DNA of 64,000 bases from Mya arenaria (lineage: Eukaryota > Mollusca > Bivalvia > Myida > Myidae), in contig NC_069136.1 of assembly GCF_026914265.1 (NCBI RefSeq), positions 10,658,356 through 10,722,355 of the forward strand, read 5' to 3'. Shown in pieces: positions 32,871-59,790 of the stretch. The notes under the pieces were generated by a model. The model worked only from the letters and a program-made list of their open reading frames with translations, ran no database searches and was not told where the DNA came from. Positions within the stretch are counted from its first letter, which is position 1. Each line of letters begins with the position of its first letter. The position numbers and the translations under genes were made by a program.

Positions 32871-32943
32871 TTTTAGACTAATCGTGACATGTGAGCTACT
32901 CTCGTGTTGAAGGTTACATAAAACCGGCCTAGTTCAGTTCAGC

Positions 32944-32950
32944 TATAAAT
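32944..32950 (+). promoter_or_regulatory. TATA box of inhibitor gene 1
   Basis: CTATAAATTGTACA lies 61 bases upstream of the start codon. The spacing is identical in all three copies, and the surrounding TAAAACCGGCCTAGTTCAGT block is conserved. Confidence 0.7.
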
Positions 32951-33004
32951 TGTACATGAATCAAACCTTTAGGGCATACGTCTGAGATATCTAGACCGAC
33001 CAAC

Positions 33005-34545
33005 ATGAGAACCTCTATTGTCGCACTTGTTTTCTGTGGATTAATCGGTTTGTTGAAATTATTATAATGTAAAGTCGTCTTTGAAATTGAGACATATTGA
33101 GATATGAAATAATATAAGTTTTAATCGGGAGATAGGATTTTCAAACAACGGGTAAAATTTGAAGAAAAATTAATAATTTAAGAACTTTTACGAAACTATG
33201 TAATAGCAAAGTTTGTCTTTGTATAGGGCATGCACGTAAGTCTCCAACGGACCCATTTTCGCTGATGTCGTTATATATTATTAAGGTGTGTTTGCTACTT
33301 TCAAAAACATCATAAACAAAAAAATATTTCCAACTAGTAGAGTTGAAACGGTTCACATCCATGTTAAGAACCAATTTCAATGCTTACGTTATTCAATCCC
33401 TAACAAACGCCCACGTGCCAGATAATAGCCGACCATACTGGGACAGCGTGTGTCCGTATAGGCAAATATTGTCAATGGTACCATAATTCAATCCGTCACA
33501 ATTGTTCACTATTAATTTTACAGCCATCAGTGTTGGCGAACCATGCCAGACGCTAGCTGACTGTGCAGAGACGGCCTGCACCCATCTTGACAGTCACATC
33601 ACCTGCGAATGGCCGAAGGGGGATTGTGATAACGGCAACTGCCATGGCTATTGCACCTGCGGCGCACTCACAGGTAAATCTTCAAAATGTTCTTCAAAAA
33701 TGAATACATATTATTGTTTCTATATATTTCTCTTGCCATATATACTCGAACAAGCACACACTATTACATAATTGTAAAAACGCGAATCTGTGATATTTGT
33801 GTAGGTTTGTATGAAATAGGTTTTGTCCCTTTTTGCCGTTTTATAATGTTTGAATCAGCCGGTGAAACATAAAAACGACAATGTCATATAGTTATGATGA
33901 AAAATCATCTACATCAATGAATGACCGCGGGGATGATTTTTTCTATATCTAAAATTGATCCCCTGATCACCTATGTTGAAAAATTGATACAGCATCATCA
34001 TCAGCAACAGCAGCAAAAACAGCAGAAATACTAGTTGCTGTAGCAGCAGAATGATCATCATCATAATAATGATAATCATCATGCTATATATTTCTCTGGA
34101 ATTTATTTCTTAATATGGAAGTTTGAACGCAGGGTCAAAAACCTATAGACGTCATTATCTTAATTTGGACGAGGGGGTCTATGTGTAAAGGGTAATTTTT
34201 CTGACTAAAATGATCCCCGGGTACTGTTTTTATGGGGATCATTTTTTTCGTTATTTCGTCCATATTGATATTAATAAGATCCATCTGACAAATCAATTGT
34301 GTGCGTTATAGGTAAATAGGTATGCATATAAAAAAGAGTCAATTTAAACTGTGTCCTCAGTTTAAAAAAAGCAGCGATAAAACCAGAGGTCCAATATATG
34401 TAATCTGCGAGCGTTTAAGGGAAATCATTTCCACATTTCAGCTTGTGGCCCATCTGGTGACTGCAGCGCCATCCGATGTCACGACCAAGACAAGGCCCCA
34501 CACTGTGTAGAGAGAAGTTGCAAATGTATCGATATCGATAACTGA
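33005..34545 (+). CDS. Secreted cysteine-rich protease inhibitor-like peptide 1 (Cvsi/I84-like)
   Basis: Three exons, 33005-33047, 33524-33673 and 34442-34545, join in phase to 98 aa. A hydrophobic signal peptide of about 18 residues (MRTSIVALVFCGL...) is followed by a mature chain with 14 cysteines. The chain is two related modules: CX5CX4CX8C with a CTC end, then CX5CX4CX8CX4CXC. This resembles bivalve Cvsi-type slow-binding subtilisin inhibitors (MEROPS I84), which is the best guess from cysteine spacing and length; another small secreted cysteine-rich family is possible. The intron 1 donor is GTTTGT, against GTATGT in the other two copies, and intron 1 is about 0.9 kb shorter. Copy-specific residues are Ser4, Lys in WPKG and Arg in VERS. 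A polyA signal AATAAA lies at 34,653. Confidence 0.85.
33990..34085. repeat. ATC/CAG microsatellite, intron 2 of inhibitor 1
   Basis: CATCATCATCAG followed by interrupted CAG units and (ATC)n. The orthologous spots in copies 2 and 3 have different repeat lengths. Confidence 0.85.
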
Positions 34546-34652
34546 TATGCCCAGTAGGTTTCGTCAATTGTAATTTGAAAATAACTAACAAGGTATAAAA
34601 ATAAGAACATTTTGTTTTGTATTTATTTGCCTTCGACGATTGTTATGATTAT

Positions 34653-34658
34653 AATAAA
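34653..34658 (+). terminator. Candidate polyadenylation signal of inhibitor gene 1
   Basis: AATAAA about 108 bases below the stop; the ATTATAATAAAAACG-like context is conserved in all three copies. Confidence 0.5.
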
Positions 34659-35502
34659 AACGTATTATCAACAAGAACATTAAACATGGTAATAAACATG
34701 TGTAAACGCATGTTGCCTTTTATTTTAACCTTAAGCTGATCTATTGATAATGAAAGGTAACACAATTCCACAATATCTGAAATGCCATTTTTATTTTTGT
34801 AATTTTTTACTTATACTGTTAACATTATTTATTTGCCCACATTTTTAGAAACAGGAGAGAAGTAATAACATTAGCTTTCATCTATCTCTTCAATCCCGAC
34901 GCTGTTAGATGTATAATATGTGTTGTTTTTATGTATTTTCATGCATTTAATAACTTCTACCTTTAAACTAAACTCGGTTACAAAGATCAAACGAGACAAC
35001 ATTTATACCAATGAAAATCGTGCTCTGTGTATTTGGTTGGAGCTTTTGGGTTCAGAAGCATACTCATTTACCCTTGAAATATGCATTTGTTGAAGTTAAG
35101 TGGGTCTTCTCGAGCGAAATGGCCCCAAAGGTGATCCCTAAGACCCTTGACTTTATTTACGTTTTTAAGACTAAAATAATGGTTATTAAGTGTATTGAGC
35201 AAGTGTATTAGAAACTGTGAAATGAGGTTAAGATTAAATGCCGGTGCTCTAAAAATAATATAAGCGATAAAAGAATAATTGATCTGACTTTCGATTGGCG
35301 GGGATAGTAGTAGGTATGTTTAGTAACTCTAGCACACTCGTTATAAGTTGAATAGGTTACTCCAACAAAAACATCAGCATCAAACTGAAGGAAACTTAAC
35401 CAGCGGCATTTAATACGTCAACAGTGTTTCATTAATCTTATTTTATTGGACATTTTTGTATTAATAAATTGTAGATATCATATATTGAAAAAGGGTTGCA
35501 AT

Positions 35503-37337
35503 TATTTTCATAGTTGAATGTAACCTATTCTTGATCATCGACGACTTAACATGTATACAAGGAAATCAATATCCACAATAGAAGCCAAGATAGTCCCAAC
35601 GATCATTTCAGCGGTAAACCCTTTTAACAAAGGCAATCAATTATTTTCATAGTTGAATGTAACCTATTCTTGATCTTCCACGACTTAACATGTAAACAAG
35701 AAAAGCAGAATCCACAGTAGCAGCCAAGATAGTTTCAACTATCATTTCAGCGGTAAAACCTTTAAACGCATCGGCGTTACATTCTGTAACATCTGAAAAA
35801 AAATAGTATGATTGTTTCCTTGGATTAACACACGCCTTGTAGTTATTCTATGTTTGCTTACGAAAATGGTTTGAGTCTTTATATGATAAGACAAAAACGT
35901 ACATCGCAACAGAGTTTGATTGACAATGTGCCGATTGTTCAGAACTTTGTTAGAATAAGTAACGTTGTTAACGGCATCTTTGTTAACTTTCAAAGGTGAA
36001 ACATTTCATGGAGGGCTGATAAACTTGGGTAAAACAATCTTTGCTGAATCAGTTTGCTAGATATTCGTGTTAAGTACCACAGATCACATGTGTGTTAAAC
36101 TTTCAGAGTATTGAATATTTGAAAGTTTACATCGAGCCAGTTAACAACGTTCTTAAATCTAACAATTGATCAAATGTTTACACAATGAGGACACATACTC
36201 TTCAATTCCGGACAAAATATATTCTGTTGCATATCGAATACCAAAACCAAGCAACTGAAATCTAATAATAACTGTTAAAGTCCCATTACCATATTCACTG
36301 AACCTGGTGATATCTGTCTGGTACGCTGTATACTGCAGATTCCACGTCTCAAGAGTTATTCCCCCTTTCAAGTCGGTCTTCGTATCAGCATTGCACAGAT
36401 AGGAGCCATCTTTCTGTGTCTCAAATGCCTGCATTAGGTTGTTGTTTGGCGAAATAAATGATTGGCTAGCTAAAAAAAGAAAAATAGGTTCAAAGAGGCT
36501 TAATACAACAAGTTCATAGAATGTATATCAGACGTATATTTTAAATATTAGAACCTGTAGCAAACGATCAAAATGTATCTTTACCAAATAGCGCTTTTCC
36601 AAGGCCAATAAAGAGAAATAAGGTACATGTATGCTATATATTATATAAAGCTATCTATTCTGAAATGTCCAACTAAACTAAAAATCAAAATGTAAAGAGA
36701 CAATATATTTTACAAAGTTTATAGGAATAATTAAGTTAAAAATAATAAATTAGTTTCAAAAATGCAGTATTGGTAAAAGTCATGTAGACTGACAAAGAGT
36801 TATCATTTTTTGCATTAGGGAAAAGTTCTGGTGTGTATTTTCCCTGTACACTCAATGTATCCCACCAGATATTGTCACCATCCTTGCCAAAGCTAAATAA
36901 AGATCTAGTATGTAAAAAGCTCCAAATTGATTGATACTTAAAACAAATAACTGACGTGTTATGATGTATCATCCTGCATATACATTCACATCACTTAATC
37001 AAGCTGTTGTAACAATAGTCCAGGGAGGGGAAAGGTTGAGCATATAGGTACCCTTAGACTGTAAGTGATTCGGAAAAGGCAGGATATTGACTTGTCTGGT
37101 GAGACAGCCACCCAAGAAACAAGGCTTGGCAAAATGTTTTCACAGGATTATCGATTATGTTCCTGTGTCAGTGATGGAATCTAGACAACAAAGTTGCAGT
37201 TTTTCCAAATCCTCTGGGTAAGTGCATTACCTTTGATGTTCCATTTCCAGTCCATGACAAAGAGTTGTATGAATCAAATTTCAGCATAATGCAAGGATCG
37301 CGTATTTCTGGGAATTTTATTGGATTGTCGCAAACGC
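35503..37337 (-). pseudogene. LAMP-like gene, copy A (decayed)
   Basis: Remnant of the LAMP gene that is whole at 54.5-59.8 kb. Recognisable exons: exon 2 (37337-37231, open), part of exon 6 (about 36890-36797), exon 7 (36469-36290, open) and the TM exon 8 (35792-35647, open, ending GYIQL). One deletion fuses mid-exon 6 straight to intron 2 sequence, removing exons 3-5 and the 5' half of exon 6. The exon 6 donor GT is lost. There is no signal-peptide exon: the match to the full gene stops just before exon 2. The TM exon is partly duplicated at 35,503-35,627, and that second copy carries a stop. No complete LAMP can be encoded. Confidence 0.85.
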
Positions 37338-37448
37338 CTGAAGGGGAAATGTTGGAGATAAATATAAATTCAAATAAATCACTTCAATAAATCTACAACT
37401 ATATGTTATAATAGTTGTATTCCACTGAAAGTGTAAAAATAAATAATA

Positions 37449-38105
37449 TCAAAACAACACATTTTGTAATTTAGGAGTAAAATTGTCATCAAATTTAAAA
37501 GTATTGGCATACTAGGATAGCAATTAAAGTGATTATTTTTTTTCAAATTGTTCAAGATGTACTCTTACTCCCAAAAAAGCTTTACCAGAATTAATAATAT
37601 TGTTTTAATATTTCATAAAGGATGAATAAATGTCGAAAACAATGGTTTTTATGAAGTATACCGAGTTCAATTTGAAATGAGCATAAAACAAGGTATTTCT
37701 ACGTAATGAGACTATAGTAGACCACAGTAAATATTTTAACATTCACCAATCATTTAATATTTTTGCGCTTTCTGCTATCAAATACGCGGTTACAATCGTG
37801 TTATCAATAATTAATATTTTCCATAAGTGCATTATTCAGTAAGAAATAAAGCTTTATCAGTCAAAATTGATGTATGCTGTACATGTGTATGTATTAATTT
37901 TGAATAAGAGCGTCACTTTATTTCTTGATAGCATGGGGACTCTGTAGTACATATAGATTTGCAATGTAGAACACTCACAATTAAAGAGATAAATTATTTT
38001 CCTATGGACGAATTTTAATTTCTTCACTTGTGCCATTGCAGATTATACATTAATAGTACAACTGTAATGTAGAACACTGCAGAGTTGCTTATCTCTGCAA
38101 AGCCT
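37449..38105. repeat. Dispersed repeat family, long form
   Basis: Related to 28,211-28,515 at both ends, with about 350 extra central bases. It is nearly the same as 45,316-45,985. In both places it lies between a LAMP exon 2 and the next inhibitor gene, so it marks the duplication junction. Confidence 0.8.
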
Positions 38106-38180
38106 ATTTTTGCTTAAATCGTGACATGTGAGCTACTCCCGTGTTGAGGATTACATAAAACCGGCCTAGTTCAGTTCAAC

Positions 38181-38187
38181 TATAAAT
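38181..38187 (+). promoter_or_regulatory. TATA box of inhibitor gene 2
   Basis: TATAAAT 61 bases upstream of the start codon, in the same conserved block as copies 1 and 3. Confidence 0.7.
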
Positions 38188-38241
38188 TGTACAAGATTTA
38201 AACCTTTAGGGCATACGTCTGAGATATCTAGACCGACCAAC

Positions 38242-40145
38242 ATGAGAACCTGTATTGTCGCACTTGTTTTCTGTGGATTAATCGGTATGTTGAAAGTATT
38301 ATTATGTGAAGACGTCTGCGAAAATGAGACATATTGAGATATGAAATAAAATAAGTTTTAACCGGGAGATAGGATCTCAAAACAACGGGTAAAATTTGAA
38401 GAAAAAAAATATAATTTAAGAACCTTTACGAATATATGTAAAAGTAGTAAAGTGTGTCTTTGTATGGGGCATGCACGTTTTTCTCCAACGGACCCATTTT
38501 CGCTGATGTCGTCATATCTTATTAAGGTGTTTTTGCTCCTTGCAAAACCATCATAAACAAACAATATTTCCAGCTAGTAGAGTCGAAAAACTTGTTTTAT
38601 TACATTTTAAATAGAAAATTCGAAATGATTTGTCCGTGAGTGACTTTGAAAAAAAATACTATGTACTATCAACTGTAATAACTACTTTTTTAAAATCAAG
38701 TGTAGTTACTTCCCATTGATCAAAACTAAACTCATCACTTTTGAACCAAAACTAATAAAAAAAAGTTTGAATATGTTTAGATAAATATATTTTTTGTAAT
38801 AAACCAAACATAATGTTTATTGGAGAAATGGTAATACTATTTTTCAAACGTTTTATTTAACTTGAAGCTGACTGTTTGAGAATTTGCTTTCGTACAAAAC
38901 AAATTACAGACGAAAACAGCTCGAACTTAAATTCGATGTTATGTCATCTATCTAATATGTTTTTTAAGAGTATGAATTTGGATTTCGAACATTCCGGACA
39001 ATTCACACAACAATTAACGAATATTTTTGTTTTTCAACCTGCCTAAAATGTCTTAACTTATTTCTGGAACACTACCTGTCTTAAGGCGAATCTGACTGGT
39101 CTCTTACAGTGATTGGTGATTGATTTAATATGCACCACTTTCTCTTTAAAAACTGTTTTAAATCGAATGTTAATTCACGTTTGTTTTGCTATCATATTCA
39201 AAAAAACATTCAACGAGGGGTGTTCATAAAATGTTTGCACTTAAACACGAGAAATTAAACTTACCAAATAAATCTTTGAGAATTTCACCTCGAGCCGGAA
39301 ATAGAAATGACAGCTACGTTATCAGCTATCAAAACTTTGCGTGAGGGGCGCCCAATGGGTATCGTCGTAGCATTGATATGTTTCTAAATTTTATCAACTC
39401 GCATTATAAAATGCAAATAATCCGTATTTCACAGCTATGATAGCGAACCCTGCATTACGAAAGCTGACTGCCCAAACGGTCCACATCCATGTTAAGAACC
39501 AATTTCAATGCTTACGTTATTCAATCCCTAACAAACGCCCACGTGCCAAATGATAGCCGACCATACTGGGACAGCATGTGTCCGTATAGGCAAATAGTGT
39601 CAATGGTACCATAATTCAATCCGTCACAATTGTCCACTATTAATTTTACAGCCATCAGTGTTGGCGAACCATGCCAGACGCTAGCTGACTGTGCCGAGAC
39701 GGCCTGCACCCACCTTGACAGTCACATCACCTGCGAATGGCCGAGGGGGGATTGTGATAACGGCAGCTGCCATGGTTATTGCACCTGCGGCGCACTCACA
39801 GGTAAATCTTCAAAATGTTCTTCAAAAATGAACACATATTATTGTTTCTATATATTTCTCTTGCCATATATACTCGAACAAGCCCACACTATTACATAAT
39901 AGTAAAATAGTGAAAACACGAATCTTTGATATTTGTGTAGGTTTGTATGAAATAAGTTTTATCCCTTTTTGCTGTTTTATAATGTTTGAATTAGCCGGTG
40001 AAACATAAAAATAACAATGTCATATAGTAATGATGATGAATAAAAAACATCTACATCAATGAATGACCCCGGGGATGATTTTTCTATATCTAAAATTGAC
40101 CCCCTGATCATCTATGTTGAATAATTGATACATCATCCTCATCAT

Positions 40146-40198
<53 letters not shown>

Positions 40199-40741
40199 AA
40201 GCAGAAACACTAGTTGCTGTAGCAGCAGAATGATCATCATCATAATAATGATAATTATCATGCTATATATTTCTCTGGGGTTTATTTCTTAATATGGAAG
40301 TTTGAACGCATGGTCAAAAACCTATAGAGGTCATTATCTTAATTTGGATGAGGGGGGTCTCTTATCCATGTGTAAAGGGTATTTTTCTGACAAAAAATGA
40401 TCCCTGGGTACTGATTTTATGGGGGTCATATTTTTCGTTATTTCGTATAATATATTGATATTAATAAGATCTATCTGACAAGTCATTGCTTTCTTGTGTG
40501 CGTTATAGGTAAATAGGTATGCATATAAAAAAGAGTAAATTTAAACTGTGTCCTCAGTTTAAAAAAGCAGCGATAAAATCAGAGGTCCAATATATGTAAT
40601 CTGCGAGCGTTTTAGGGAAATCATTTCCACATTTCAGCTTGTGGCCCATCTGGTGACTGCAGCGCCATCCGGTGTCACGACCAAGACAAGGCCCCACACT
40701 GTGTAGAGGGAAGTTGCAAATGTATCGATATCGATAACTGA
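38242..40741 (+). CDS. Secreted cysteine-rich protease inhibitor-like peptide 2
   Basis: Exons 38242-38284, 39652-39801 and 40638-40741 join in phase to 98 aa, with signal peptide and 14 cysteines as in copy 1. Differences from copy 1 include Cys4 in the signal peptide (MRTCIV), Arg in WPRG, Ser in DNGSC and Gly in VEGS. All cysteine positions are conserved. Intron 1 is about 1.37 kb and nearly matches copy 3, apart from a stretch of about 125 bases that copy 3 has near 47,080-47,205. Function is inferred as for copy 1. Confidence 0.85.
40137..40260. repeat. ATC/AGC microsatellite, intron 2 of inhibitor 2
   Basis: (ATC)n is followed by about ten AGC units, the longest of the three paralogous tracts. 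Confidence 0.9.
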
Positions 40742-41701
40742 TATGCCCAGTAGGTTTCGTCAATCGTAATGTGAAAATAACTAACAAGGAATAAAAATAA
40801 GAACATTTTGTTTTGTATTTATTTGCCTTCGACGATTATTATGATTATAATAAAAACGTGTTATCAACAAGAACATTAAACATGGTAATAAACATGTGTA
40901 AACGCATGTTGCCTTTTATCATTACCTTAAGCTGATCTATTGATAATGAAAGGTAACATAATTCCACAACATCTGAAATGCCATTTTTAATTTGTATTTT
41001 TTTACTTATACTGTTAACAATATTTATTTGCCCACATTTTTAGAAACATGAGGATAAATAACATTAGCTTTCATCTATCTCTTCAATCCCGACGCTGTTA
41101 GATGTATAATATGTGTTGTTTTTATGTATTTTTATGCATTAAATAACTTCTACCTTTAAACTAAACTCGGTTACAAAGGTCATACGAGACAGCATTTATA
41201 CCATTGGATATTGTGCTCTGTGTTTTTGGTTGGAGTCTTTGGGTTCAGAATCATACACATTACCACTTGAAATATGCATTTGTTGAAGTGAAGTTGATCT
41301 ACTCGAGCTTATCGGTCACAATGGTGATTCTCCTTTTTGACTTTAATTACGTGATTTAAAGATTAAATAGATAGGTTATTAAGTGTAATGAGCCGGTGTT
41401 GTAGTAACTGTGATAGTAGATTAAGATTCAATGTCGATGTTCTTAAAATAGTATAAGCTATGTAAGAATAATTGATCTGACTTTCGATTTGCGGGGATAA
41501 TAGTAGGTATGTTTAGTAAAACTAGTACAATCGTTATAAGTTGAATAGGTTACTCCAACAAAAACATCAGCATCGAACTGACGGAATCTTAACCAGCGGC
41601 ATTTAATACGTTAATAGTGTTTTATTGATCTTATTTTATTGGACATTTTTGTATAAATAAATTGTATACATAATATTACTGAAAAAGACACTCAATTATT
41701 T

Positions 41702-44700
41702 TCATAGTTTAATGTAACTTATTTTTGACCTTCGACGACTTAACATGTATACAAGGAGAGCAAAATCCACAACTGCAGCCACGCTAGTCCCAACGATCAT
41801 TTCAGCGGTGAAACCTTTGAACGCATCGGCATCACATTCGGTAACATCTGAAAAAAAAGAGTGCGATTGTTCCCTTGGTTTAACACACGCCTTGTATTTA
41901 TTCTATACTTGCTTAAGAAAATAGTTCGTCTATATATGATAAGAGAAAAATACACCTTGTAAAAGAGTTTGATTGACAATGGGAATATTGTTCAGAACTT
42001 TGCTGGAATGAACAAGGTTGTTAACGGCATCTTTGTTAACTTGTTAAGGTGAAACATTTCGAGGAGGGCTGATATACTTAGGTAAAACAATCTTTGCTGA
42101 ATCAGTTTGCTAGATATTCGTGTTAAGTACCACAGATCACATGTGTGTTAAACTTTCAGAGTATCAAAGATTTGAAAGTTTACAACGAGCCAGTTAACAA
42201 CGTTCTTAAATCTAACAATTGATCAAATGTTTACACAATGAGGACACATACTCTACTATTCCGGACAAAAATATATCCTGTTGCATATCGAATACCAAAA
42301 CCAAACAACTAAAATCTAATAATAACTGTTAAAGTCCCATTACCATCTTCACTGAACCTGGTGATATCTGTCGCTGTATACTGCAGATTCCACGTCTCAA
42401 GGGTTATTCCCCCTTTCAAGTCGGTTTTCGTATCAGCATTGCACAGATAGAAGCCATCTTTCTGTGTTTCAAATGCCTGCATTAGGTTGTTGTTTGACGA
42501 ACGATTAGCTAGCTAAAAAAAGAAAATAGGTTCAATGAGGCTTAATACAACAAGTTATTAGAATGTAAATCAGACTTTAAATATTGGAACCTTCAAACGA
42601 TCAAAATGTTTCCTTACAAAATAGCGCTTTTCAAAGGCCAATAAAGAGAAATAAGGTACATGTATGCTTTATATTATATAAAGGTATTTATTCTGAAATG
42701 TCCAACAAAACAAAAAATCAAAATTTACAGAGACAATATAGTTTACAAAGTTTATACGAATAATTAAGTTAAAAATAATCAATAAGTTTCAAAAATGCAG
42801 TATTGGTAGATGTCATGTAGAGTGACAAAGACATACCATTTTTTTGCATTAGGGAAAAGTTCTGATGTGTATTTTCCCTGTACACTCAATGTGTCCCACC
42901 AGATATTGTCACCATCCTTGCCAAAGCTGATATCTATAATGAAATCCTTCTTGAAAGTGATTCTCATCGCCTGGTTCATCGTCATTGCAATGAGGGCATT
43001 TCCCAGGGAAAATGAATTACAACTTCCTGTCACCATAGGGCTTTCTACTCCTATCTGAGCAGTTTTCTTCTAAAAATAAACAAGAGCTTGATTTCATCAG
43101 TTCATTACTTGAAAAAATGTTAAATTCACTTTCTCTACAAATGTCACTTTATTTAATTACAAGGGAAGCTTCGGCGTTTATTGATAGCATTTCTGAGAAA
43201 TACTATAATGAAGGTCTTTTTTATTGTATTCTAGAAGTATTATAGAAATTATCTCCATGAACAGTACCCATTCTACTTTACATATTGAAAACTGTTTAGT
43301 TATGTTATCAAATATTCATACAAAGCAAGCTTGACGACAAGTAGGTCAACATTAAGCAGAAAAATTCTGTGTTCCAGCCTATTTATAACTTATTACAAGG
43401 GAAACTGTTCTCATAATTAACATTTAACGTAATCATGATGCTTGTATTTTTAGTTTGGCCTAATAATTTTCTAAAAACTGTTTATCAGCCCAGTCAGACT
43501 CCTGTAAAACTTAATCAAAAGTATGTGTAAACAGGATTTTATCATAATTATACATTAAACACCCGCTGAGACCGATGTATGTGTAAGTTCAACTATTTAC
43601 ACCCAATTATTTATAACACTTGTATCAATACAGAATAGATGTGAAAGAATAGGAAAACCTTACAGAAAGACCATAGGGACAGAATTTACAGAACGACCCG
43701 AGGTAACAACAAGCTTGGAGATGTTTTTTTATCTGCATAACCTGAGTCCGTTAAATGTAGGCATAGTGGAAATTTAATAAATACAGCAAAACATATCATA
43801 ACAAATTCTTCCAAGTTCCAATTTTTTACTAAGTTTCACAGTTGAACATATAAATACATTAAAACATACTAGTACCTTTTGAAAAAGTTCCATTTTCAAG
43901 GTTAAACCCCTGCATCTGAACACTTGTAAATATCAATTCCAGGTTGTAAGTGTCATTCTCAACTGACATACTTTTGTCATATTTCTGCTCTGCATCACAC
44001 TGGTAGGAGTTTCCCATATTGCTCACTTGGTTAATAAGAGTTGTAATTGAAACTGGGCCTAAAATGAGTAAGATTCAAAATTAAATACACATTGGTTAAT
44101 ACTTTCTTGTTTGTATATCAAATTGATGCATGTGTAAGAATAATGATCACTAATACATATATTACATATAACGTTAAACTGTATAGATTTTGCTGATCTG
44201 ATCATGTAGCAAACATGTGCTAAAACATGTGTTAAATGTGTATTAAAGGCAGATCACATCACTGAACAGGAATCGCACCTGTCATTCTATTCTTGAAGAC
44301 TATATATGGCACAAACTCTAGGTCCATAACAACATTTACCATGTCTGAACTGTACTTGTAGGTAAACTTGAAGGTAGAATTATCCACATGAAACCTTACT
44401 TTCACAAATGGATCATTAGTTTGCCCTCACACATTCCATCTATTACTGACAGGTCTTCAAACGTCCACATTGGTACCTTCTGCAAAAAGAGGAAGGGAAA
44501 ATCACATACATTTTTTTACACCGATCCAAAAGTTTTTAAATGATATTCTGAACCTTTTCCAACAGCATTTCTTTCATTCCCAAATTCGACATGTATTTTG
44601 AAAATGTTTGCAATAAGATAATCCCACATCATGGGGTAAATTCTAATTCCAAAAATGGCTAGGAAAACGCCTGCTACATTCTACTTGAGAATCTAGTTAA

Positions 44701-45204: not shown

Positions 45205-45315
45205 CTGAAGGGAAAATGTTGGAGATAAATATAAATTCAAATAAAACACTTCAATAAATCTACAACTATAAGTTACAATAGTTGTATTCCTCTGAAAGTG
45301 TAAAAATAAATAATA

Positions 45316-45985: not shown

Positions 45986-46059
45986 TTTTTGCTTAAATCG
46001 TGACATGTAAGCTACTCCCGTGTTGAGGATTACATAAAACCGATCTAGTTCAGTTCAGC

Positions 46060-46120: not shown

Positions 46121-48732
46121 ATGAGAACCTGTATTGTCGCACTTGTTTTCTGTGGATTAATCGGTATGTTGAAAGTATTATTAAGACGTCTGCGAAAATG
46201 AGACATATTGAGATATGAAATAAAATAAGTTTTAACCGGGAGATAGGATCTCAAAACAACGGGTAAAATTTGAAGAAAAAAATATAATTTAAGAACCTTT
46301 ACGAATATATGTAAAAGTAGTAAAGTGTGTCTTTGTATGGGGCATGCACGTTTTTCTCCAACGGACCCATTTTCGCTGATGTCGTCATACCTTATTAAGG
46401 TGTTTTTGCTCCTTGCAAAACCATCATAAACAAACAATATTTCCAGCTAGTAGAGTCGAAAAACTTGTTTTATTACATTTTAAATAGAAAATTCGAAATG
46501 ATTTGTCCGTGAGTGACTTTGAAAAAAAACCCCATGTACTATCAACTGTAATAACTACTTTTTTTTTAAATCAAGTGTAGTTACTACCCATTGATCAAAA
46601 CTAAACTCATCACTTTTGAACCAAAACTAATAAAAAAAAGTTTGAATATGTTTAGATAAATATATTTTTTGTAATAAACCAAACATAATGTTTATTGGAG
46701 AAATGGTAATACTATTTTTCAAACGTTTTATTTAACTTGAAGCTGACTGTTTGAGAATTTGCTTTCGTACAAAATAAATTACAGACGAAAACAGCTCGAA
46801 CTTAAATTCGATGTTATGTCATCTATCTAATATGTTTTTTAAGAGTATGAATTTGGATTTCGAACGTTCCGGACAATTCACACAACAATTAACGAATATT
46901 TTTGTTTTTCAACCTGCCTAAAATGTCTTAACTTATTTCTGGAACACTACCTGTCTTAAGGCGAATCCGACTTGTCTCTGACAGTGATTGGTGATTGATT
47001 TAATATGCACCACTTTCTCTTTAAAAACTGTTTTAAATCGAATGTTAATTCACGTTTGTTTTGCTATCATATTCAACCTTTCCATTCCAAGTTTTATTCA
47101 GTAAATGGCGGCCAATGTTACTTCGGTCATGCATTCATGCCCTTAACAATTTGGAAATACTTTCGTGCATTTATTCATTATTTGGGCCATAGATGCATCA
47201 AAAAACATTCAACGAGGGGTGTTCATAAAATGTTTGCACTTAAACACGAGAAATTTACTTACCAAATAAATCTTTGAGAAGAATTTCACCTCGAGCCGGA
47301 AATAGAAATGACAGCTACGTTATCAGCTATCAAAACTTTGCGTGAGGGGCGCCCAATGGGTATCTTCCAAGCATTGATATGTTTCTAAAGTTTATCAACT
47401 CGCATTATAAAATGCAAACCCCTCGGAATCATCCGTATTTCACAGCTATGATAGCGAACCCTGCATTACGAAAGCTGACTGCCCAAACGGTCCACATCCA
47501 TGTTAAGAACCAATTTCAATGCTTACGTTATTCAATCCCTAACAAACGCCCAGGTGCCAGATGACAGCCGACCATACTGGGACAGCATGTGTCCGTATAG
47601 ACAAATAGTGTCAATGGTACCATAATTCAATCCGTCACAATTGTCCACTATTAATTTTACAGCCATCAGTGTTGGCGAACCATGCCAGACGCTAGCTGAC
47701 TGTGCAGAGACGGCCTGCACCCACCTTGACAGTCACATCACCTGCGAATGGCCGAGGGGGGATTGTGATAACGGCAACTGCCATGGCTATTGCACCTGCG
47801 GCGCACTCACAGGTACATCTTCAAAATGTTCTTCAAAAATGAACACATATTATTGTTTCTATATATTTCTCTTGCCATATATACTCGAACAAGCCCACAC
47901 TATTACATAATAGTAAAATAGTAAAACACGAATCTTTGATATTTGTGTAGGTTTGTATGAAATAGGTTTTATCCCTTTTTGCTGTTTTATAATGTTTGAA
48001 TTAGCCGGTGAAACATAAAAATAACAATGACATATAGTAATGATGATGAATAAAACACATCTACATCAATGAATGACCCCGGGGATGATTTTTCTATATC
48101 TAAAATTGACCCCCTGATCATCTATGTTGAATAATTGATACAGCATCCTCATCATCATCATCATCATCAGTAGCAGCAGCAGCAGCAGAAAAAGCAGAAA
48201 CACTAGTTGCTGTAGCAGCAGAATGATCATCTTCATAATAATGATAATTATCATGCTATATATTTCTCTGGGGTTTATTTCTTAATATGGAAGTTTGAAC
48301 GCAGGGTCAAAAAACTATAGAGGTCATTATCTTAATTTGGACGAGGGGGTCTCTTATCCATGTGTAAAGGGTATTTTTCTGACAAAAATGATCCCTGGGT
48401 ACTGATTTTATGGGGGTCATATTTTTCGTTATTTCGTATAATATATTGATATTAATAAGATCTATCTGACAAGTCATTGCTTTCTTGTGTGCGTTATAGG
48501 TAAATAGGTATGCATATAAAAAAGAGTAAATTTAAACTGTGTCCTCAGTTTAAAAAAGCAGCGATAAAATCAGAGGTCCAATATATGTAATCTGCGAGCG
48601 TTTTAGGGAAATCATTTCCACATTTCAGCTTGTGGCCCATCTGGTGACTGCAGCGCCATCCGGTGTCACGACCAAGACAAGGCCCCACACTGTGTAGAGG
48701 GAAGTTGCAAATGTATCGATATCGATAACTGA
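46121..48732 (+). CDS. Secreted cysteine-rich protease inhibitor-like peptide 3
   Basis: Exons 46121-46163, 47663-47812 and 48629-48732 join in phase to 98 aa. The start is MRTCIV as in copy 2. The mature chain has WPRG, DNGNC and VEGS, so it differs from copy 2 by about one residue. All 14 cysteines are kept. Intron 1 (about 1.5 kb) is nearly that of copy 2. The downstream flank carries a foldback insertion at 48.9 kb and then a LINE at 50.1 kb. Confidence 0.85.
48146..48255. repeat. ATC/AGC microsatellite, intron 2 of inhibitor 3
   Basis: A shorter (ATC)n and (AGC)n tract than in copy 2. The Ile/Met/Leu-rich minus-strand frame over it is an artefact of the repeat. Confidence 0.85.
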
Positions 48733-50089: not shown

Positions 50090-53000
50090 GATAGATTTAT
50101 TCGTGCATATATATATGTCATAGTAACAAACCAAATATCTCATAAAGTTATAACACAGACTGATTAACAAAGTATTAGTGATGATATCTATACTAAAGCA
50201 CAACATCATTAGAATGCTTTGGATACATACGTGCGTTAATAAAGATTTTATTCAATGTGACAAATATATAACACAGGATAACCCGTTAAAGTTATTCAAC
50301 TTATTTCCAATGGGGTCTTTATGACAAATATAATTATTTGCCAAGATCTCAGTTGTAAGCTGTTTAAATTAGGTTTTCTTATACAAAGATAACATGCATG
50401 TACTCTTGACCAGTTAAAGAATGATTAAATGTTTGAGATCGAACTTTTACAGTTATAATGCAACCGACTGTTAAAACCATATGACACTTTAGCATAATAT
50501 GACAAAAATCTTAGAACTGATATGCAAGATTAAATGAATAACAATTAATAAAATAGGAAATCTTCCATTTCTGCACATTTCATACCAACACTAAGATGTG
50601 ATTTCACTTCGTTTTTAAAAGTATTCTTATTTTTCAATTATTTTAACTTTATTGGAAGACTGTTCCAGTCTTGGATTGCTTGATAAAAGAAAGTATTTAA
50701 TATAAAACTGTCAGTCTGTGGCACTTTAAAATTTCCAGCACTATGTCTACTGTTGTAAGAATGTGTGGATGAGACTAAAGTAAAATGTTCATGTAAGTAT
50801 GATGGGCATTTGCTATTAAAGATTTTATGTACATGGTTAAGTCGTAGTTGCTTTATCCTATTTTCTATATTAAGCCATCCAATATCACTGAAAGCCGAGA
50901 CTTTCAGGGAAGTTCTACAATCATAGCCATAAATAAATCTGACAACTTTGTTCTGAGTGACCTGTAATCTGTTCTTGAATTGTTTAGATATACCACTGTA
51001 CCAAGATGTCGATGCATAGTCAAAATGACATTGTATTAAGGAGTTACATAACAATCTTCTTAGATTCATATCTAAAAAAACGATTTTTTTAGCCTAGAAT
51101 TAACTTTACTGACAATATTGTTAACAATAGATGCAGCACTGAGATCATTGTCCAGTATACTTTCAAGATATTTAACAGATTGTTTAGGTTTTATGATATG
51201 GCCATTGCAGTTTACATTAAAGCTATCAACTTTTGTTAGTTTTCTTTAAGACCCAAATAAAATACATTCTGTTTTTCCAAGATGCAAAGACAGTTTGTTG
51301 TCAACTAACCACTTACTACAGTTTTCAAGTTCCTTGCCGAGTACATTGCTAATAACAGACGGATCTTTGTGTGAGAAAGGGATAGCAATATCATCTGCAT
51401 ATAATATTAATTTACATTTTTCACTTATGCTTATACTCATATCATTGACATAGCATAAAACAGCAACGGTCCAAGTATGCTTCCTTGAGGAACGCCACAA
51501 GAGATGTTCATGAATTCAGACGTTGTATTATTTACATTGACAACTTGTTTACGTCCAGATAAATATGATTGAAACCACTCAATTGAATCCACACCAATTT
51601 CTTTTAACTTCTGACATAGAATTTTGTGATCTACGGTATCAAACGCCTTTTGAAGATCCAGCATAATCATTCCTGTATATAGACCTTTGGAATTTTGTTC
51701 TTTTATATGGTCGGTCAAATGAATTAGGCAGGAGTCAGTTGAATAGTTACATCTAAAACCACTCTGAAGTTCGTATAATAATCCATGTTTAACAAGAAAA
51801 GATTCTAGTTGGTTGTATACAACTCTTTCTAAGATTTTTGAAACTATACATAGTATGCTTACAGGTCGATAGTTTGAAACATCAGATCTGTTGTTTTTCT
51901 TAAACAATGGTTTAACTTTAGCATTTTTGAGTTCAGATGGTACAATGTTACTTGTGATAGAGCTGTTTATCAGAAATGTTACTGGTATCTTTAAAAATGG
52001 TGCAGAATCTTTTAAAAATCTTGCAGGAATGTTATCTAACCCAGTGCTTTTTGAACAATTTAGTTTACATAGTTCCTTGTAAATGTATTCTCCAATAACA
52101 GTGTAAATCTGACCACAGCTTTTTTGGATCATTTTTATTTTCTTCCAGCTTGTTCGACATATATTCTGATTCGGCCTTAATTACTTCTTTCTGAACTAGG
52201 TTTCTGTAAAAACGATATTTATCTAACATCATCTCCTTCTGTTTGTATTTTTTGAATTGGAAATAAAAAGCATCTCTTTGACTGATGAGTTCCAGAATGT
52301 TAGAATCTAACCATGGTTCACTTCTTTGTTTTAGTCTGACTTCCTTAACAGGAGCAACAGTGTTCAAAACTGACAGAAATGTTTCTTTAAAAGACAGCCA
52401 TGAATCTTCTACATTTTTTGCAATAAACATGTTTGGCCAATCCCAAAGTTTAAGTTTGTGAATAAAATGATCTACATTGTAATGTTTCAAAGATCTTATA
52501 ACAACATTCTTATGCATATTATACGTCTTTTTCTGTGTTTTACGCGTACAAAAATACAGACAAATGATCACTGAGACCTATCGGAAGAGTACCAGACTGA
52601 ACAATATTGTCTTGATGGCTACATAAAATGTGATCTAACACAGAAGATGAGGACTCTGAGATTCTGGTAGGGTCATTTATAATCTGTTTTAGATTAAAGA
52701 TATTAAGAACTTGTTCAAACTGATTTCTTTGCAAAAAACAAATGTTAAAATCACCAAGGATGTACCATTCTGAGTCAGATCTAACCATAGATAAAACATT
52801 TTCAAAAATATCAACAAAATCTGTTTGTTTAGGTGGTCTATAACATGACCCTATTAAAATAGGTTTGAGTTTTGGTAATAAAATATCAGCCCACACTGCT
52901 TCAAGATTGTCCTTTTCTAGGTCCCGTCTTTCGGTGAACGCCAGATCTTCATTAACGTATAAGCATACTCCACCACCTTGTCTGTTCCGGTCCTTTCTGA

Positions 53001-54368
53001 TCACATTGTATCCTTGAATTTGTATTTCCGTGTCCATAACTGAATTGTCTATATTTTGGCATTAAATGTCTCACTTCGGGCAACTTTGGTAATAGAGATC
53101 GTATGTTGAAATGCATAAAATGAAGTCCTTTAAGTTCAAAGCAGTTAAAATTACTACACGATTCGGCAAAACTATTGTCATGATAACCAGGCAGAATTCT
53201 ATCATGAATATCGTTTAAATCATCAAAAAGATAAAAAGGTAATAATTTAAAAGTACATATCCGGCAAGTGAAATAGAAAGATCCATTAGATTTGCATACG
53301 TTTGAGTAGAAAGAATCACTTATCTAACCAGAGCATCTTATATGTGTCCGGATTTCGCAAAAATCACAGTTGACAGCTTTACTACGGGCAGTTACACCTT
53401 TTCCACAAACTGAACAAGGAAATCTAGGTTGTCCCCCTTCCTTCATATTTGAAAATCCCGAATTATCAACATACTTGTCCTGTTCAATGGGTCCAGGGTG
53501 CGGGTGCACGTCACCACTTAGTAGAAGGAACACGAAAAATATATATCTTGGATTAACCTTGGCATAATACTTCTGAAGGTTTTTAATCGTTCTCATGGAG
53601 AATACAAAATGGCTGGGTGCCACTTCAACCACTGGGGGCGAAAGGTACGAAAGAATTTCAAACGTGAAAATACTGTTTTTGTAGAGTCGAAACTGCTGAC
53701 AAGTGTTTTTTCGCATGGAGAATATTTATGTTTGTTTTAGGCTGGTTGGTATCGTTGTATTCCACTGTTTTAAAATATATTTGAAGAAGTATACAGGCGA
53801 TTAAAATTCCACGAAAAGCCACCATCTTGAACGACTAGACTGTTAGCTCCTGTATGAAACAAAATTAAATGTCTCACCAGTACGTTCAGAAGAAAAAGTG
53901 ACTCTACACATATGTTAAAAAATAATTAACTCTTCCTCTTTATAAAGCTTGAAAGTCCCTCTTCGATAATTTCTACGCCGGGATCCGAACACTATCAAGC
54001 GTTTACGTTATATCTCCTGTGGAATTGTTGTTCGATTTTATTGAATTTATCATAAACGGTACGGTTGTTGGCAAAATGATTGTTCACTGTTGATTTCCCA
54101 TCTTTTAAGTTAAAGTTCCGTCTTTTTCCTCTTTGTTACTCGATTTCTTGCGCCGACGTCAAACCAAATTTGAAGTTTTCCAAAGTTCACACAATCCATC
54201 TTGATGAAAATTGTACCATAAGACGTGAATTTTAATTTGACATCGTTTGATAATATATTTTTTTGAATATTGCTTAAGAAATTATGTTAAAATAATTTAT
54301 TTTTGTTAAAATATATAAGAGCGTCATTTTTTTACAACTTGTTATGATGACGTCATTTCCGGACGTGG
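50090..54368 (-). mobile_element. LINE with 2A-like motif, PHD finger, endonuclease and RT (CR1-like)
   Basis: A 4,279-bp insertion flanked by AGGTTA (50,084-50,089 and 54,369-54,374). Units 1 and 2 keep the empty site (35,35x and 41,55x). Coding order on the minus strand: an N-terminus with SGDVHPHPGP, a 2A-like motif (about 53,520), then a C4HC3-type finger starting CSVCGKGV. Next comes an APE-type endonuclease (NIRSLLPKLPEVR near 53,100; GSCYRPPKQ and ILGDFN in 53,037-52,540). Last is a reverse transcriptase (KAFDTVDH, SCGVPQGSILGPLLF, LYADD at about 51,390) and a conserved C-terminal region to 50,638. Single-ORF organisation is likely. Breaks seen: a stop after the finger's RCSG, at least two frame changes between endonuclease and RT, and one between the PQGS and YADD blocks. 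The 3' end is AATAAATCTATC with no poly-A. It is full length but inactive. Confidence 0.92.
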
Positions 54369-54442: not shown

Positions 54443-54448
54443 TTTATT
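54443..54448 (-). terminator. Candidate polyadenylation signal of the intact LAMP gene
   Basis: AATAAA on the minus strand 76 bases below the stop codon, just inside the border of the LINE insertion. Confidence 0.55.
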
Positions 54449-54523
54449 AATCTTATTTCATTGGACATTGTTGTATAAATAATTTGTATACATCATATTA
54501 TTGAAAAAGGCACTCAATTACTT

Positions 54524-57500
54524 TCATAGCTGAATGTAACCTATTTTTGACCTTCGACGACTTAACATGTATACAAGGAGAGCAAAATCCACAACTGCAG
54601 CCAAGATAGTCCCAACGATCATTTCAGCGGTGAAACCTATGAGCGCATCGGCATCACAATCGGTAACATCTGGAAAAAAGAGTGCGATTGTTTACCTTTG
54701 GTTTAACACACGCCTTGTATTTATTCTATACTTGCTTAAGAAAATAGTTCGTCTATATATGATAAGAGAACAATACACCTTGTAAAAGAGTTTGATTGAC
54801 AATGGGAAGATTGTTCAGAACTTTGCTAGAATGAACAACGTTGTTAACGGCATCTTTGTTAACTTGTTAAGGTGAAACATTTCATGGAGGGCTAATATAC
54901 TTAGGTAAAACAATCTTTGCTGAATCAGTTTGCTAGATATTCGTGTTAAGTACAACAGATCACATGTGTGTTCATTAAACTTTCAGAGTATTAAAGATTT
55001 GAACGTTTACAACGAACCAGTTAACAACGTTGTTAAATCTAACATTCGATTAAATGTTTACACAATGAGGACACATACTTTACAATTCCGGACAAAAATA
55101 TATCCTGTTGCCACAGCGAATACAAAAACCAAAAAAATAAAGTATAATAATAAATGTGAAAGTCCCATTACCATCTTGACTGAAGTCAGAAATATCTGTC
55201 TGATAAGCTGCATACTGCAGATTCCACGTCTCAAGAGTTATTCCCCCTTTCAAGTCCGTCTTTGTATCTGCATTGCACAGATAGGAGCCATCTGTATGCG
55301 TCTTAAATGCTTGCATTAGGTTGTTGTTTGACGAATTGAATGGTTGGCTGGCTAAAATAGGAAAATAGGTTCAAAGAGGTTTTATTCAGCAAGTAAATCA
55401 GACGTATACTTTAAACATTGGAACCTTCAACCTGTAGCAAACGATAAAAATGTTTGCTTACGAAATAGGGCTTTCCAAAGGCCAAAAAGGAAAATAACGC
55501 ACATGCATGTTGTATACATTATATATATGTATATATTCTGAAATGTCGAACAAAACAAAAAATCAAAATGTAAAGAGGCAAAATCTTTTACAAAATTAGG
55601 AATAATTAAGTTATAAAATAAGATATTAGTTTCAACCCAATTTGCAGTACTGGTAAAAGTAATGTTGACTTTGGTAGACCTACCATCTATTGCGTTAGGG
55701 AAAAGTTCTGGTGTGTATTTTCCCTGTACACTCAATGTATCCCACCAGACATTGTCACCATCCTTGCCAAAGCTGATATCTATCACGAAATCCTTATGGA
55801 AAGTGATACTCATCGTCTGGTTCATCATCATGGCATTGAGGGCATTTTCCAGGGAAGATGAATTACAACTTCCTGTCACTATGGGGCTTTCTACTCCTAT
55901 CTGAGCAGTTTTGTTCTTAAAATAATCAACATAGCTTGATTTCATCAGTCCATTACTGGGAAAAATGTTAAATTAACTTTCTCTACAAAATGACACTTAA
56001 TCTAATTACAAAGGAAGCTTCGGCGTTTATTGATGTCATCACTAATCTGGGAAATACTATAACCAAGGTATTTTTATTGTTATTATAGAAATCATCTCCA
56101 TGAACAGTACCCATTCTATTCTTAACTTAAAGCTGCACTCTCACAGATTGAACGTTTTGACAACTTTTTGTATTTTTTTTCTTCGAACGAGCCTATTTTT
56201 GCGAAAATCCATGGAGACCAGTTATATAAGAATGCTGTCAAAAAATTAGATCACAGATTTATATAAATAAGTTCAAAATTTGAGGTTTTATGAATTTTTC
56301 TTAAACCGTTATTACGGTTTAACCCATAAAACATGAATTTTCGTACGGAAATATTAAAATCTACGATCTTATTTTTGTCAGCAATCTTATATCATTGATT
56401 TGCTGATATTTACGCAAATATTTGCTCTTTTGAAGACAAAAACTAAAACAAGTTGTACAAATGGTATATCTGTGAGAGTGCAGCTTTAAGGCTGAACTTG
56501 AAAATCCAATGATGAGACAATTACTCTTGCATTAAATATATTACACCTACTAGTATTATGGTTTTAGATTAAACTGTAAGTTAACCACAAACTAATTATA
56601 ATTTAATTATTCAAAGTTGATGTGAATTAACTGTTTCACATATTGAACACTGTTTTAATTGTGCTAAAAAAATCGTACAAAGCAAGCTGACGGCAAGTAG
56701 GTCAACATTAAACAGAAAGGTTCTGTGTTACAGCCTGTTTATAACTTATTACAAGCGTCACTGTTCACATAATTAACATTTATCGTTATCAAGATTCTTG
56801 TATTTTTAGGTTGGACTAATAATTTTCTAAACTGGAACTACATATACAAGACAGTAAAAGCAAAAGCGTGTAGAGACCCCCCTCCTAATGAGGATACAAA
56901 CGCCAATTTGAATTTCTCAGGTCATAAAGCATGTTGTCAACAACAATTACTATTTTAAAAGTTAGAGTTATGGCCTTGCTACAAACTTGTACATTACAAT
57001 TCATGACAGTATCTGAAACAGATTATGAGCATACAAAACTGATAAAGACAAAGGCATAAAATTGTCCAACACAAATCACACTTAGGGGTGTTTAAAGAGA
57101 TATTATTCTCAAGATAAACATCACATTAAAACATGATTTGACCCCCCCCCCCCCCCCACCCCACCCCCCAATCCTAGAATATCTACTTCTCCCTGTTTTC
57201 AAAGTCTAGCTTATTTCATGCTTTGACTTGTACTTTATTGAAAAGACTAGCTTATAAAACCAGACTCTCACCGTATCATTTGTCTGGTATTGTACAATGA
57301 TCATCATCTGGGCCTTCAGAAGGATACAGGTCTTATTGGCATCATCTTTAACGCTCAAAGACAGCTCGGGGTGGTTTGAGGGATTTGGCGCTGGTGTTGT
57401 TGCAGTTGGTGCTGTTGAAGTTGGTGTTGATCCTGTCTTAGTTGGTGCTGTGGTTGTTGATGGTGTTAGTGTGGATGTTAATTCAGCATCTGCAGGACAG

Positions 57501-59790
57501 TGGTCACCTTGGAATTTAGAAGATTTTTTTTCGTTAAAGTTCACTTTTCAACAAAAACTATTAAGTTACAAAAGCATGCTGTTTTGTTTGGGTCATTTAT
57601 GTTCAAGTTAAACTATTTACACACATTTATTTATAAATCTTGTAGCAATACTGAATAGATGTGGCAGAAAAGAAAACACTACAGGTGTCAGATTGACAGA
57701 GCAACCCGAGGTAACAACCAGCTGGGAGTCTGGGAGATGTTCATTTTTTCCGCTTAAGTCCACGATTATTCGTATAGTGCAAATTCCATGAATACAATTT
57801 ATCGTATCAAAACAATTTTTTCCAAGTTCCAAATTCTTACCAAGTTTCACTGTTGAACATATAAATACATTAAAACATACTAGTACCTTTTAAAAAAGTT
57901 CCATTTTCAATATTAAACGCCTGCATATGAACACGTGTAAACTTCAATTCCAGGTTGTAAGTGTCATTCATATCTGACTTGTTTCCGTCATATTTCTGCT
58001 CTGCATCACACTGGTAGGAGTTTTCCATACTGCTCACTTGGTTAATCTCAGTTGTAATAGAAACTGGGTCTAAAATGCACAAGAATAAAGATATTAAATA
58101 CACATTGGTTAATACTTTCTTGTTTGTATATCAAATAAATGTGTGTGTAAAATTAATGTTCACTACTACATGTATTACATATATAGTTTGTGCTGATCTG
58201 ACCATGTAGCAAACATATGTTAAACGTATATTATTGCTTTCATCATGCAAATTAAATACATGAACAATATTTTTATGAAAATCTACAGAAACAAGTCCAG
58301 TAGACGAACGTTTACACATAAACCCCGTTTAATGGCACAGGGTAATGCTAATGCCATAGGACACAAAAACAAACAATCACAATCCAGAAATATGGAAGAA
58401 CAGCACAAAACTCCACAAACAAAACACTACATATATAATAAATAATACTAGGGGTGCTCATCAAATTCTCACCTGTCATTCCATTCTTGAAGACTATATC
58501 AGGCACAAACTCTAAGTCCATAACAACATTCACCATGTCTGAACTGTTCTTGAAGGTAAACTTGAAGGTAGAATTATCCTTATGAAACCTTACTTGCACA
58601 AATGGATCAATATTTTGCCCCTCACACGTTCCATCTATTACTGACAGATCTTCAAACGTCCACAGTGGTACATTCTGCAAAAATGGAAGGGAAGATCACT
58701 TACAATTTTTCCACCCATCCTGAAGTTTTTAAATGATATTCTAAACCTTTCCAAACAGCATTTTTTTCATTTCCAAATGTGACATGTAACTCCAATTTGA
58801 AGATGTTGGCGATAAGATTATCCCACATCTTGGGGCAAATTCTCATTCCAAAAATGCATAGAATAGGGCTAGCTACATTCTATTTGAGAATCTAGATTGA
58901 CTAAAATAGTCAATTTTATTTTGGTAAATAAAGATCTAGTATGATATAAGCTTCAATTTGATTAATACTTAAAACTAATTACAGACATGTTATACAGTTA
59001 CATCATTCAATCAAGCTGCTGTAACATTAGTCCAGGGAGGGGACAGTGTGGGCATATAGGGGACCTTAGACTGCGAGTGACTCGGGATATTGACTTGTCC
59101 AGTGAGACAGCCACCAAGGAAACTAGGCTTGGTCGAATGTTTTTTTCACAGGATTGCCGATGCCTGAACACCTATCACCAAATGTCACTGCTCCAGAGGT
59201 GGAATCTAGACAACAAAGTTGCAGTTTGTCCGACGCCTCACAAAATAGATATGTGCATTACCTTTGTTGTTCCATTTCCTGTCCATGACAAAGAGTTGTA
59301 AGAATCAAATTTCAGCATAACACACGGCAGGCCTGTCTCTGGGAATTTTATTGGATAGTCGCAAACACCTGAATAGAAAATAAGTGTGGGGGACTTGTGT
59401 AGTGGTATAAAAACATAAACGTGAATGTATTCATTTTATATTTTATGTTCAGGTAGAATTGCACATATGTCACAATTATACACAACTTTATTACTTAATA
59501 ACTTACCTAGGTAATTGGATTTATCTTCTTAATACATTATGTCAGAAGGTTGCAATATTTAATGGACTTACTGATAAACCTTATCAAGTAACTGGCTCTT
59601 CAGTTGTATAGGCAAAGAAATATCTAGAACGATATAGGTTTGCTGTGTTTTAGACTTATGTCATTCGCTGACTCGTTTGTTATTCAACCTACTCGTAATA
59701 CTATGTTGTCTTTATCAGCTGCGACATACATAACAGTTTTACGTACTTACAACATGCAATACAAACAGCCAGCATGCTTATCAGCCTCAT
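54524..59790 (-). CDS. LAMP: Lysosome-associated membrane glycoprotein (LAMP), intact
   Basis: Eight exons: 59790-59751, 59368-59262, 58674-58473, 58069-57887, 57507-57272, 55915-55684, 55351-55172 and 54669-54524. All phases close, giving 441 aa (human LAMP1 has 417). A signal peptide (MRLISMLAVCIAC) is followed by LAMP domain 1 with PCVML...SYQC and MQAF blocks. Then comes a Pro/Thr/Ser-rich hinge (about residues 188-218) and LAMP domain 2 with KTCILLKAQ, LFPNA, GSYLCNAD and LQYAAY blocks. One TM helix (about 410-429), SRRRSK and a terminal GYIQL follow. The GYxxPhi tail is the classical AP-dependent lysosomal sorting signal. The protein should be a heavily N-glycosylated lysosomal membrane protein. 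Oddity: an Asp (421) lies within the TM helix. The two related copies to the left are decayed. Subtype (LAMP1 vs LAMP2) is not resolved. Confidence 0.94.
56127..56489. repeat. Foldback MITE in LAMP intron 5
   Basis: Perfect-looking ends TTAAAGCTGCACTCTCACAG and CTGTGAGAGTGCAGCTTTAA, with complementary arms around a CCGTTATTACGG centre. It is absent from the matching intron of copy B (near 43.2 kb), so it inserted after the duplication or was lost there. Confidence 0.9.
57141..57172. repeat. Poly-C tract in LAMP intron 5
   Basis: A run of about 18 C residues followed by ACCCCACCCCCCA, in the stretch that copy B lacks. Confidence 0.9.

Follow-up and report, generated by a model that had tools for sequence, protein, structure and literature searches.

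Intact inhibitor-like genes beside complete and truncated LAMP genes in a tandem array of the bivalve Mya arenaria

In a 64,000-nucleotide stretch of Mya arenaria DNA (C15:10,658,356-10,722,355, hereafter the window), three collinear units each carry a plus-strand gene for a cysteine-rich inhibitor-like protein resembling Family I84, positioned tail-to-tail with a minus-strand LAMP gene or LAMP remnant. The inhibitor copies are intact, and purifying selection has acted on them as a set. The preliminary description of this DNA suggested that selection kept the extra inhibitor copies while the duplicate LAMP genes were free to decay. A contrast of two genes released together and sorted by selection is not supported: the copied segment spanned the entire inhibitor gene but no more than a portion of LAMP, and the 'opposite fates' are mostly built in by the breakpoints. 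Because the segment held only part of LAMP, decay of the LAMP copies requires no relaxation of selection after duplication.

Organisation of the inhibitor and LAMP genes

Self-comparison of the window placed the three units within 32,880-59,790, with starts at 32,880, 38,117 and 45,996, bearing out the preliminary description and the accuracy of its coordinates. Its view of the array as three units holds in the window; a further unit on another chromosome (C12) and LAMP genes located 3' of the window had been missed. Unit 1 (32880-37433, delimited by alignment to units 2, 3 and the C12 segment) comprises inhibitor 1 and the LAMP A remnant, and a deletion has removed the stretch between the LAMP A exon 6 remnant and exon 2. 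The portion of unit 2 common to units 1, 3 and C12 was likewise defined by alignment (38117-42928). Unit 3 alone contains a retrotransposon-bearing insertion (50090-54368, minus strand) between inhibitor 3 and LAMP C, with reverse transcriptase (51437-52180) and endonuclease (52543-53061) sequences in broken frames.

Inhibitors 1-3 each consist of three plus-strand exons of 43, 150 and 104 nt with GT-AG borders and two phase-1 introns, and all three retain an open 297-nt frame encoding 98 residues with the full set of 14 mature cysteines. The earlier claim that frames, cysteines and splice phases had been kept is thus confirmed for 3/3 copies, with the small exception of signal-peptide residue 4, which is Ser in inhibitor 1 and Cys in the other copies. 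In inhibitor 1, exon 1 (33005-33047; GT donor, phase 1) encodes part of the signal peptide, exon 2 (33524-33673; AG/GT borders, phase 1) contains eight cysteines, and exon 3 (34442-34545) contains six cysteines and the stop. The corresponding exons are located at 38242-38284, 39652-39801 and 40638-40741 for inhibitor 2, and at 46121-46163, 47663-47812 and 48629-48732 for inhibitor 3. A search of the genome (1.216 Gb in 18 contigs) with the inhibitor yielded nine matches, eight of them exon matches in four copies. The ninth, a weak match on C6 (E 1.26), was rejected, as neither strand shows a cysteine array of the I84 type according to our own pattern. The fourth copy is located at 57.61 Mb on C12 and has an open frame and all 14 cysteines, bringing the intact copies to 4/4. 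LAMP remnants lie next to three of these four inhibitors and the complete LAMP C next to the fourth.

LAMP C (54524-59790, minus strand) encodes 441 aa in eight exons with GT-AG borders (59790-59751, 59368-59262, 58674-58473, 58069-57887, 57507-57272, 55915-55684, 55351-55172 and 54669-54524). Its parts, which we take to be a signal exon, two luminal halves, a Pro/Thr hinge, one membrane segment and the short tail GYIQL, are those of the LAMP family. The protein matches PF01299 with an E-value of 2.1e-13 (50.8 bits, cut-off 27.2), and combines this luminal domain match with a single membrane segment (identified by eye) and a GYxx-hydrophobic tail. A related gene, LAMP E, lies outside the window on the plus strand (C15:10,737,076-10,743,659). 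Its exons 2-7 have open frames and its last exon ends in GYDSV; its exon 1 was not found. A more distant LAMP is located beyond LAMP E on C15. Leaving aside a length difference in exon 5, LAMP C and LAMP E share 88-96% identity over exons 2-7, and the last exons (54524-54669 and C15:10743514-10743659) share approximately 37% protein identity and end in GYIQL and GYDSV, respectively.

The LAMP copies in units 1 and 2 are incomplete. The LAMP A remnant (minus strand) consists of exon 2 (37231-37337), the 3' end of exon 6 (36804-36894, acceptor side deleted), exon 7 (36290-36469) and two copies of exon 8, the first at 35647-35792 and the second, broken by an in-frame TGA, at 35508-35622. Exons 1 and 3-5 are missing, together with the exon 6 acceptor. 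LAMP B, also on the minus strand, retains exon 2 (45098-45204), exon 3 (44279-44479, with a 1-base deletion causing a frameshift), exon 4 (43876-44058), exon 6 (42838-43069, donor shifted), exon 7 (42344-42501, with the 5' end and acceptor altered and a 6-base deletion) and exon 8 (41702-41847), and is without exons 1 and 5. In the C12 remnant (D), exons 6 and 7 are accompanied by two exon 8 copies, both broken. None of the three remnants (A, B and C12) yielded an exon 1, and neither A nor B combines a signal exon with a continuous frame. The reported loss of signal exon, internal exons and frame therefore stands for the exons in both copies and for the frame in B; in LAMP A, open frames persist in exons 2, 6' and 7 and in the first exon 8, with a stop only in the second exon 8. 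The doubling of exon 8 in both LAMP A (35508-35792) and the C12 remnant suggests a common ancestry of the two.

Breakpoints and mosaic history of the units

LAMP A and B both end in intron 1. Their homology to LAMP E extends 96 bp beyond exon 2 on its 5' side, and the sequence then passes into the upstream region of the next inhibitor. Together with the missing exon 1, this shared junction supports the earlier suggestion that both copies were truncated from birth by a cut in intron 1. Junction J1 (37433-38117) joins LAMP intron 1 to the inhibitor upstream region and holds a high-copy dispersed repeat (37551-37920), while junction J2 (45300-45996) has the same composition and lies inside a 96.6% identical block. 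The 370-bp repeat, for which 6,121 first-look genome candidates were obtained and 40 scored, occupies the matching place in J1 and J2, and its 3' part opens the C12 segment. The repeat is absent from homologous sequence at 28.2 kb, and the left edge of unit 1 is without the junction. The junction thus most simply arose once and was then copied. The C12 segment spans approximately 6.2 kb, its left edge located inside the 370-bp repeat and its right edge directly abutting another many-copy repeat. Sequence just left of the segment was found at three other genome places at the set threshold, and a tandem array of ~67-bp units related to the right-edge repeat occurs at C16:52587818-52592540. Upstream of the inhibitor ATG, only 125 bp, containing a TATA-like box (identified by eye), are common to copy 1 and the others; beyond this point the sequence is junction-derived in copies 2-4 and different in copy 1.

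In partial gene duplication, a breakpoint inside a gene means that the new copy is incomplete from the outset, as set out in PMC3449122. The LAMP remnants correspond to this description in having an intragenic breakpoint and a born-incomplete copy. They differ from it in that a complete and an incomplete gene stand side by side, in that there are four such segments, and in that one of these has a complete LAMP. The literature that we searched contained no paper joining LAMP, bivalves and tandem duplication, a statement confined to that search. The same copying events moved one whole and one cut gene, providing a natural side-by-side comparison, and neighbours that appear 'kept versus decayed' need no difference in selection until their breakpoints have been mapped.

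A comparison of the four segments reveals that which two are closest depends on the position along the unit. Units 2 and 3 are mostly closest in the inhibitor region (mostly 0-3% divergence; ~2% for the noncoding sequence of copies 2 and 3), whereas unit 1 and C12 are closest at the LAMP 3' end (0-4%). Of 91 informative sites, 80 back the topology (1, C12)(2, 3), 8 group units 1 and 2, and 3 group units 1 and 3. These sites are clustered, forming 14 runs compared with a shuffle mean of 20.9 (P 0.001). Identity amounts to 96% between inhibitor blocks 2 and 3, in contrast to 84% for the adjoining stretch and 81-87% for the LAMP B and C blocks.

A separate observation concerns exon 4 of LAMP B, which differs from exon 4 of LAMP E at 1/183 bases. 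The tract (43848-44065, minus strand; approximately C15:10738315-10738533) lies beside intron that is ~15-24% or more divergent from LAMP E, and the near-identity departs from that of the other exons (Fisher P 1e-7). The pattern resembles that of gene conversion over a short distance between oppositely oriented genes.

Selection and the history of the array

Among the four inhibitor coding sequences, 11 sites vary, of which 5 are nonsynonymous and 6 synonymous. Noncoding variation amounts to 9.0% of 1,418 gap-free sites, or 8.1% of the 1,003 sites beside exons 2-3. From this noncoding change, 17.3-19.3 nonsynonymous changes were expected over the whole tree, far above the 5 seen (P 0.0001-0.0006), whereas the 6 synonymous changes fit the 5.7-6.4 expected (P 0.54-0.65). 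This indicates that purifying selection acted on the inhibitor set. When only the division of the 11 sites is considered, a binomial test gives P 0.018-0.047, with a rough ratio of nonsynonymous to synonymous rates (dN/dS) of 0.23-0.36. A model in which only one copy is constrained predicts 6.2-15.4 nonsynonymous changes in the others, compared with 2-5 seen (P 0.0006-0.054 across eight variants), and constraint probably extends to more than one copy. The preliminary proposal that selection kept the extra inhibitor copies is thus upheld for the set but not for each copy separately, with 0 to 3 nonsynonymous changes per branch.

We tested for a corresponding signal in LAMP using core exons 2, 3, 4, 6 and 7. 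Intact LAMP C and E give a dN/dS of 0.51, and the remnants give 0.60 (A-B), 0.49 (A-D) and 0.57 (B-D) among themselves and 0.32-0.61 against C or E. In a three-way count that set aside 12 codons different in all three genes, nonsynonymous/synonymous changes were ~34/15 for B, 23/8 for C and 8/7 for E. The inhibitor division (5:6) does not differ significantly from that of the LAMP B branch (34:15; P 0.17) or of C plus E (P 0.30), nor does LAMP B differ from C plus E (P 1.0) or from E alone (P 0.35). The predicted contrast between inhibitors and LAMP remnants was therefore not seen, nor do these ratios establish neutral evolution of the remnants. The missing contrast may arise partly from change that predates breakage and is carried by the remnants. 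With LAMP A and B truncated by the duplication itself, the 'opposite fates' lose most of their force.

On the basis of these observations, we propose the following history. At the outset, a secreted inhibitor gene of the Family I84-like type and a LAMP gene would have lain tail-to-tail. Illegitimate recombination would then have fused intron 1 of LAMP to the sequence immediately preceding the inhibitor, such that each duplicated segment held the whole inhibitor and a LAMP lacking the signal exon. A dispersed repeat of high copy number presumably came to lie in the junction, which would have been copied again (between unit 2 and unit 3) and to another chromosome (C12, where both edges lie at repeats), with the units being partly homogenised by recombination among them. 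The cut LAMP pieces would have been unable to give a targeted protein from the start and would have eroded by exon deletion and frameshift, while purifying selection on the inhibitors as a set would have preserved their copies intact. The benefit, if the copies are expressed, would most likely be more, or differently controlled, secreted inhibitor, for example in defence. We place the probability of this scenario as a whole at roughly 70%.

A number of results weigh against it. For the window's three inhibitors alone (8 variable sites, 4 nonsynonymous and 4 synonymous), the division gives only P 0.08-0.14. Tested one by one, the probability of as few nonsynonymous changes as observed was 0.09, 0.56, 0.12 and 0.09 for copies 1-4 at the local rate, and 0.008, 0.66, 0.19 and 0.16 at the overall rate; constraint on any single copy is not firmly established. 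The neutral rate is itself uneven, with copy-1-specific change at 31/290 sites in 5' intron 1 and 3/178 sites just before exon 2. Open frames by themselves are weak evidence of selection: in neutral simulations, all four copies stayed open in 33-37% of runs without indels and in 4-14% with assumed indels at 0.05-0.1 per substitution. Retention of all 14 cysteines as well reduces this to 3-5% without and 0.3-1.3% with assumed indels. The selection tests were picked after looking and are not mutually independent, and they draw on a total of only 11 changes among the four copies. Likeness between the copies could also be maintained by gene conversion. Finally, because LAMP B and C diverge more than inhibitors 2 and 3, the two genes of a unit are not of one age, which counts against reading the array simply as three sister units. 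A single doubling of whole units was rejected on account of this same difference between blocks.

It is conceivable that the inhibitors are intact merely because the copies are young and unselected, the LAMP remnants being worse off owing to their greater age and their truncation at birth. The low noncoding divergence of copies 2 and 3, the ease with which four frames stay open under neutral substitution (P 0.33-0.37) and the mostly weak per-copy tests would all fit. We nevertheless consider youth unlikely, given that 5 nonsynonymous changes were seen where 17-19 were expected while synonymous change fits, and that open frames with all 14 cysteines have a neutral probability of 0.003-0.045 depending on the assumed indel rate. 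Alternatively, gene conversion from one functional master, as opposed to selection on each copy, might keep the inhibitors alike and open. The shifting closest pair, the clustering of informative sites and the drop in identity outside the inhibitor 2/3 block point in that direction. However, synonymous change in the exons equals intron change and only nonsynonymous change is low, hence the exons are not specially homogenised; one topology is also backed by 80 of the 91 informative sites, and conversion from a master seems to us an improbable account of the data. It is more doubtful still that LAMP A and B started complete and decayed since LAMP dosage was not useful. LAMP B does retain 6/8 exons, several with splice sites kept, but both copies lack exon 1, both share one intron 1 junction running into the upstream region of the next inhibitor, and the C12 remnant likewise lacks exon 1.

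Relationship to Family I84 and other features of the window

A Pfam search with the inhibitor matched no family, and a PDB sequence search returned only three chance-level matches (best E 0.82), with no solved relative found. We compared the gene with MEROPS Family I84 (cvSI of oyster and scSI of razor clam) as described in PMC9198434. According to this account, razor clam I84 genes have three exons, two type 1 introns and 12 conserved cysteines in the pattern CX5-8CX4-5CX7-9CX4CTCX6-23CX5-7CX3-6CX5-8CX4CXC. They occur in tandem clusters with Ka/Ks of 0.16-0.57, and 2/14 are called nonfunctional; tandem I84 expansion is thus already known, in razor clam. The Mya gene matches this layout, with three exons, two phase-1 introns and a signal split by intron 1, exon 1 encoding part of it. 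Also in common are a mature peptide of ~8.4 kDa (assuming cleavage after residue 19), the C-terminal array CX5CX4CX8CX4CXC with the CTC motif, the last six cysteines thereby lying at spacing allowed for I84, and tandem clusters with Ka/Ks below 1.

All 12 family positions align, but the published 12-cysteine pattern is not matched. The 14 cysteines are spaced 5,4,8,6,4,3,1,5,5,4,8,4,1, with two extra cysteines in an 11-residue insert before the CTC, and the CTC-to-next spacing of 5 is one under the published range. On these grounds, the gene is best classed by its sequence as an I84-like 14-cysteine variant rather than a plain I84 member, with predicted protease inhibition; the comparison is with I84 as portrayed in that account. 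Further differences from it are a computed isoelectric point of 4.5-4.7 (4.98-6.11 in I84), LAMP sequence in every copied segment, one segment on another chromosome, and the 4/4 intact copies set against the 2/14 nonfunctional ones of razor clam.

A motif composite built from PMC9198434 identified eight further genome places with weak E-values (0.04-3), all 8/8 of which contain an I84-type cysteine array by our own loose pattern, one being divergent. Similarity was measured against these I84-like genes of the same genome, themselves weak-E composite matches. Exon 3 shares 40-47% identity with two of them, both 12-cysteine genes, and exon 2 shares 23-37% with five genes; the exon 2 profile score was matched or exceeded by 28/2000 cysteine-preserving shuffles. 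With this variant, an alternative arrangement of cysteines is seen in a family of mollusc inhibitors that has been linked to defence. We tentatively suggest that a 14-cysteine I84 branch with a two-cysteine loop may be spreading in the form of a mobile segment, with three copies in tandem and a fourth on a different chromosome; copy 1 and copies 2-4 would then possibly be controlled differently and kept for different uses.

Elsewhere in the window, a 1,430-bp stretch is tandemly repeated with 100% identity (27308-30172), and this perfect repeat would be either very recent or an assembly effect. Probable voltage-gated potassium channel exons lie on the minus strand at 5177-11274 (Ion_trans 5177-6130, BTB_2 10918-11274). 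On the plus strand, 62091-63976 contains a coiled-coil-like open frame followed by a C-type-lectin-like frame, the latter a weak match (E 0.0077) below the curated cut-off.

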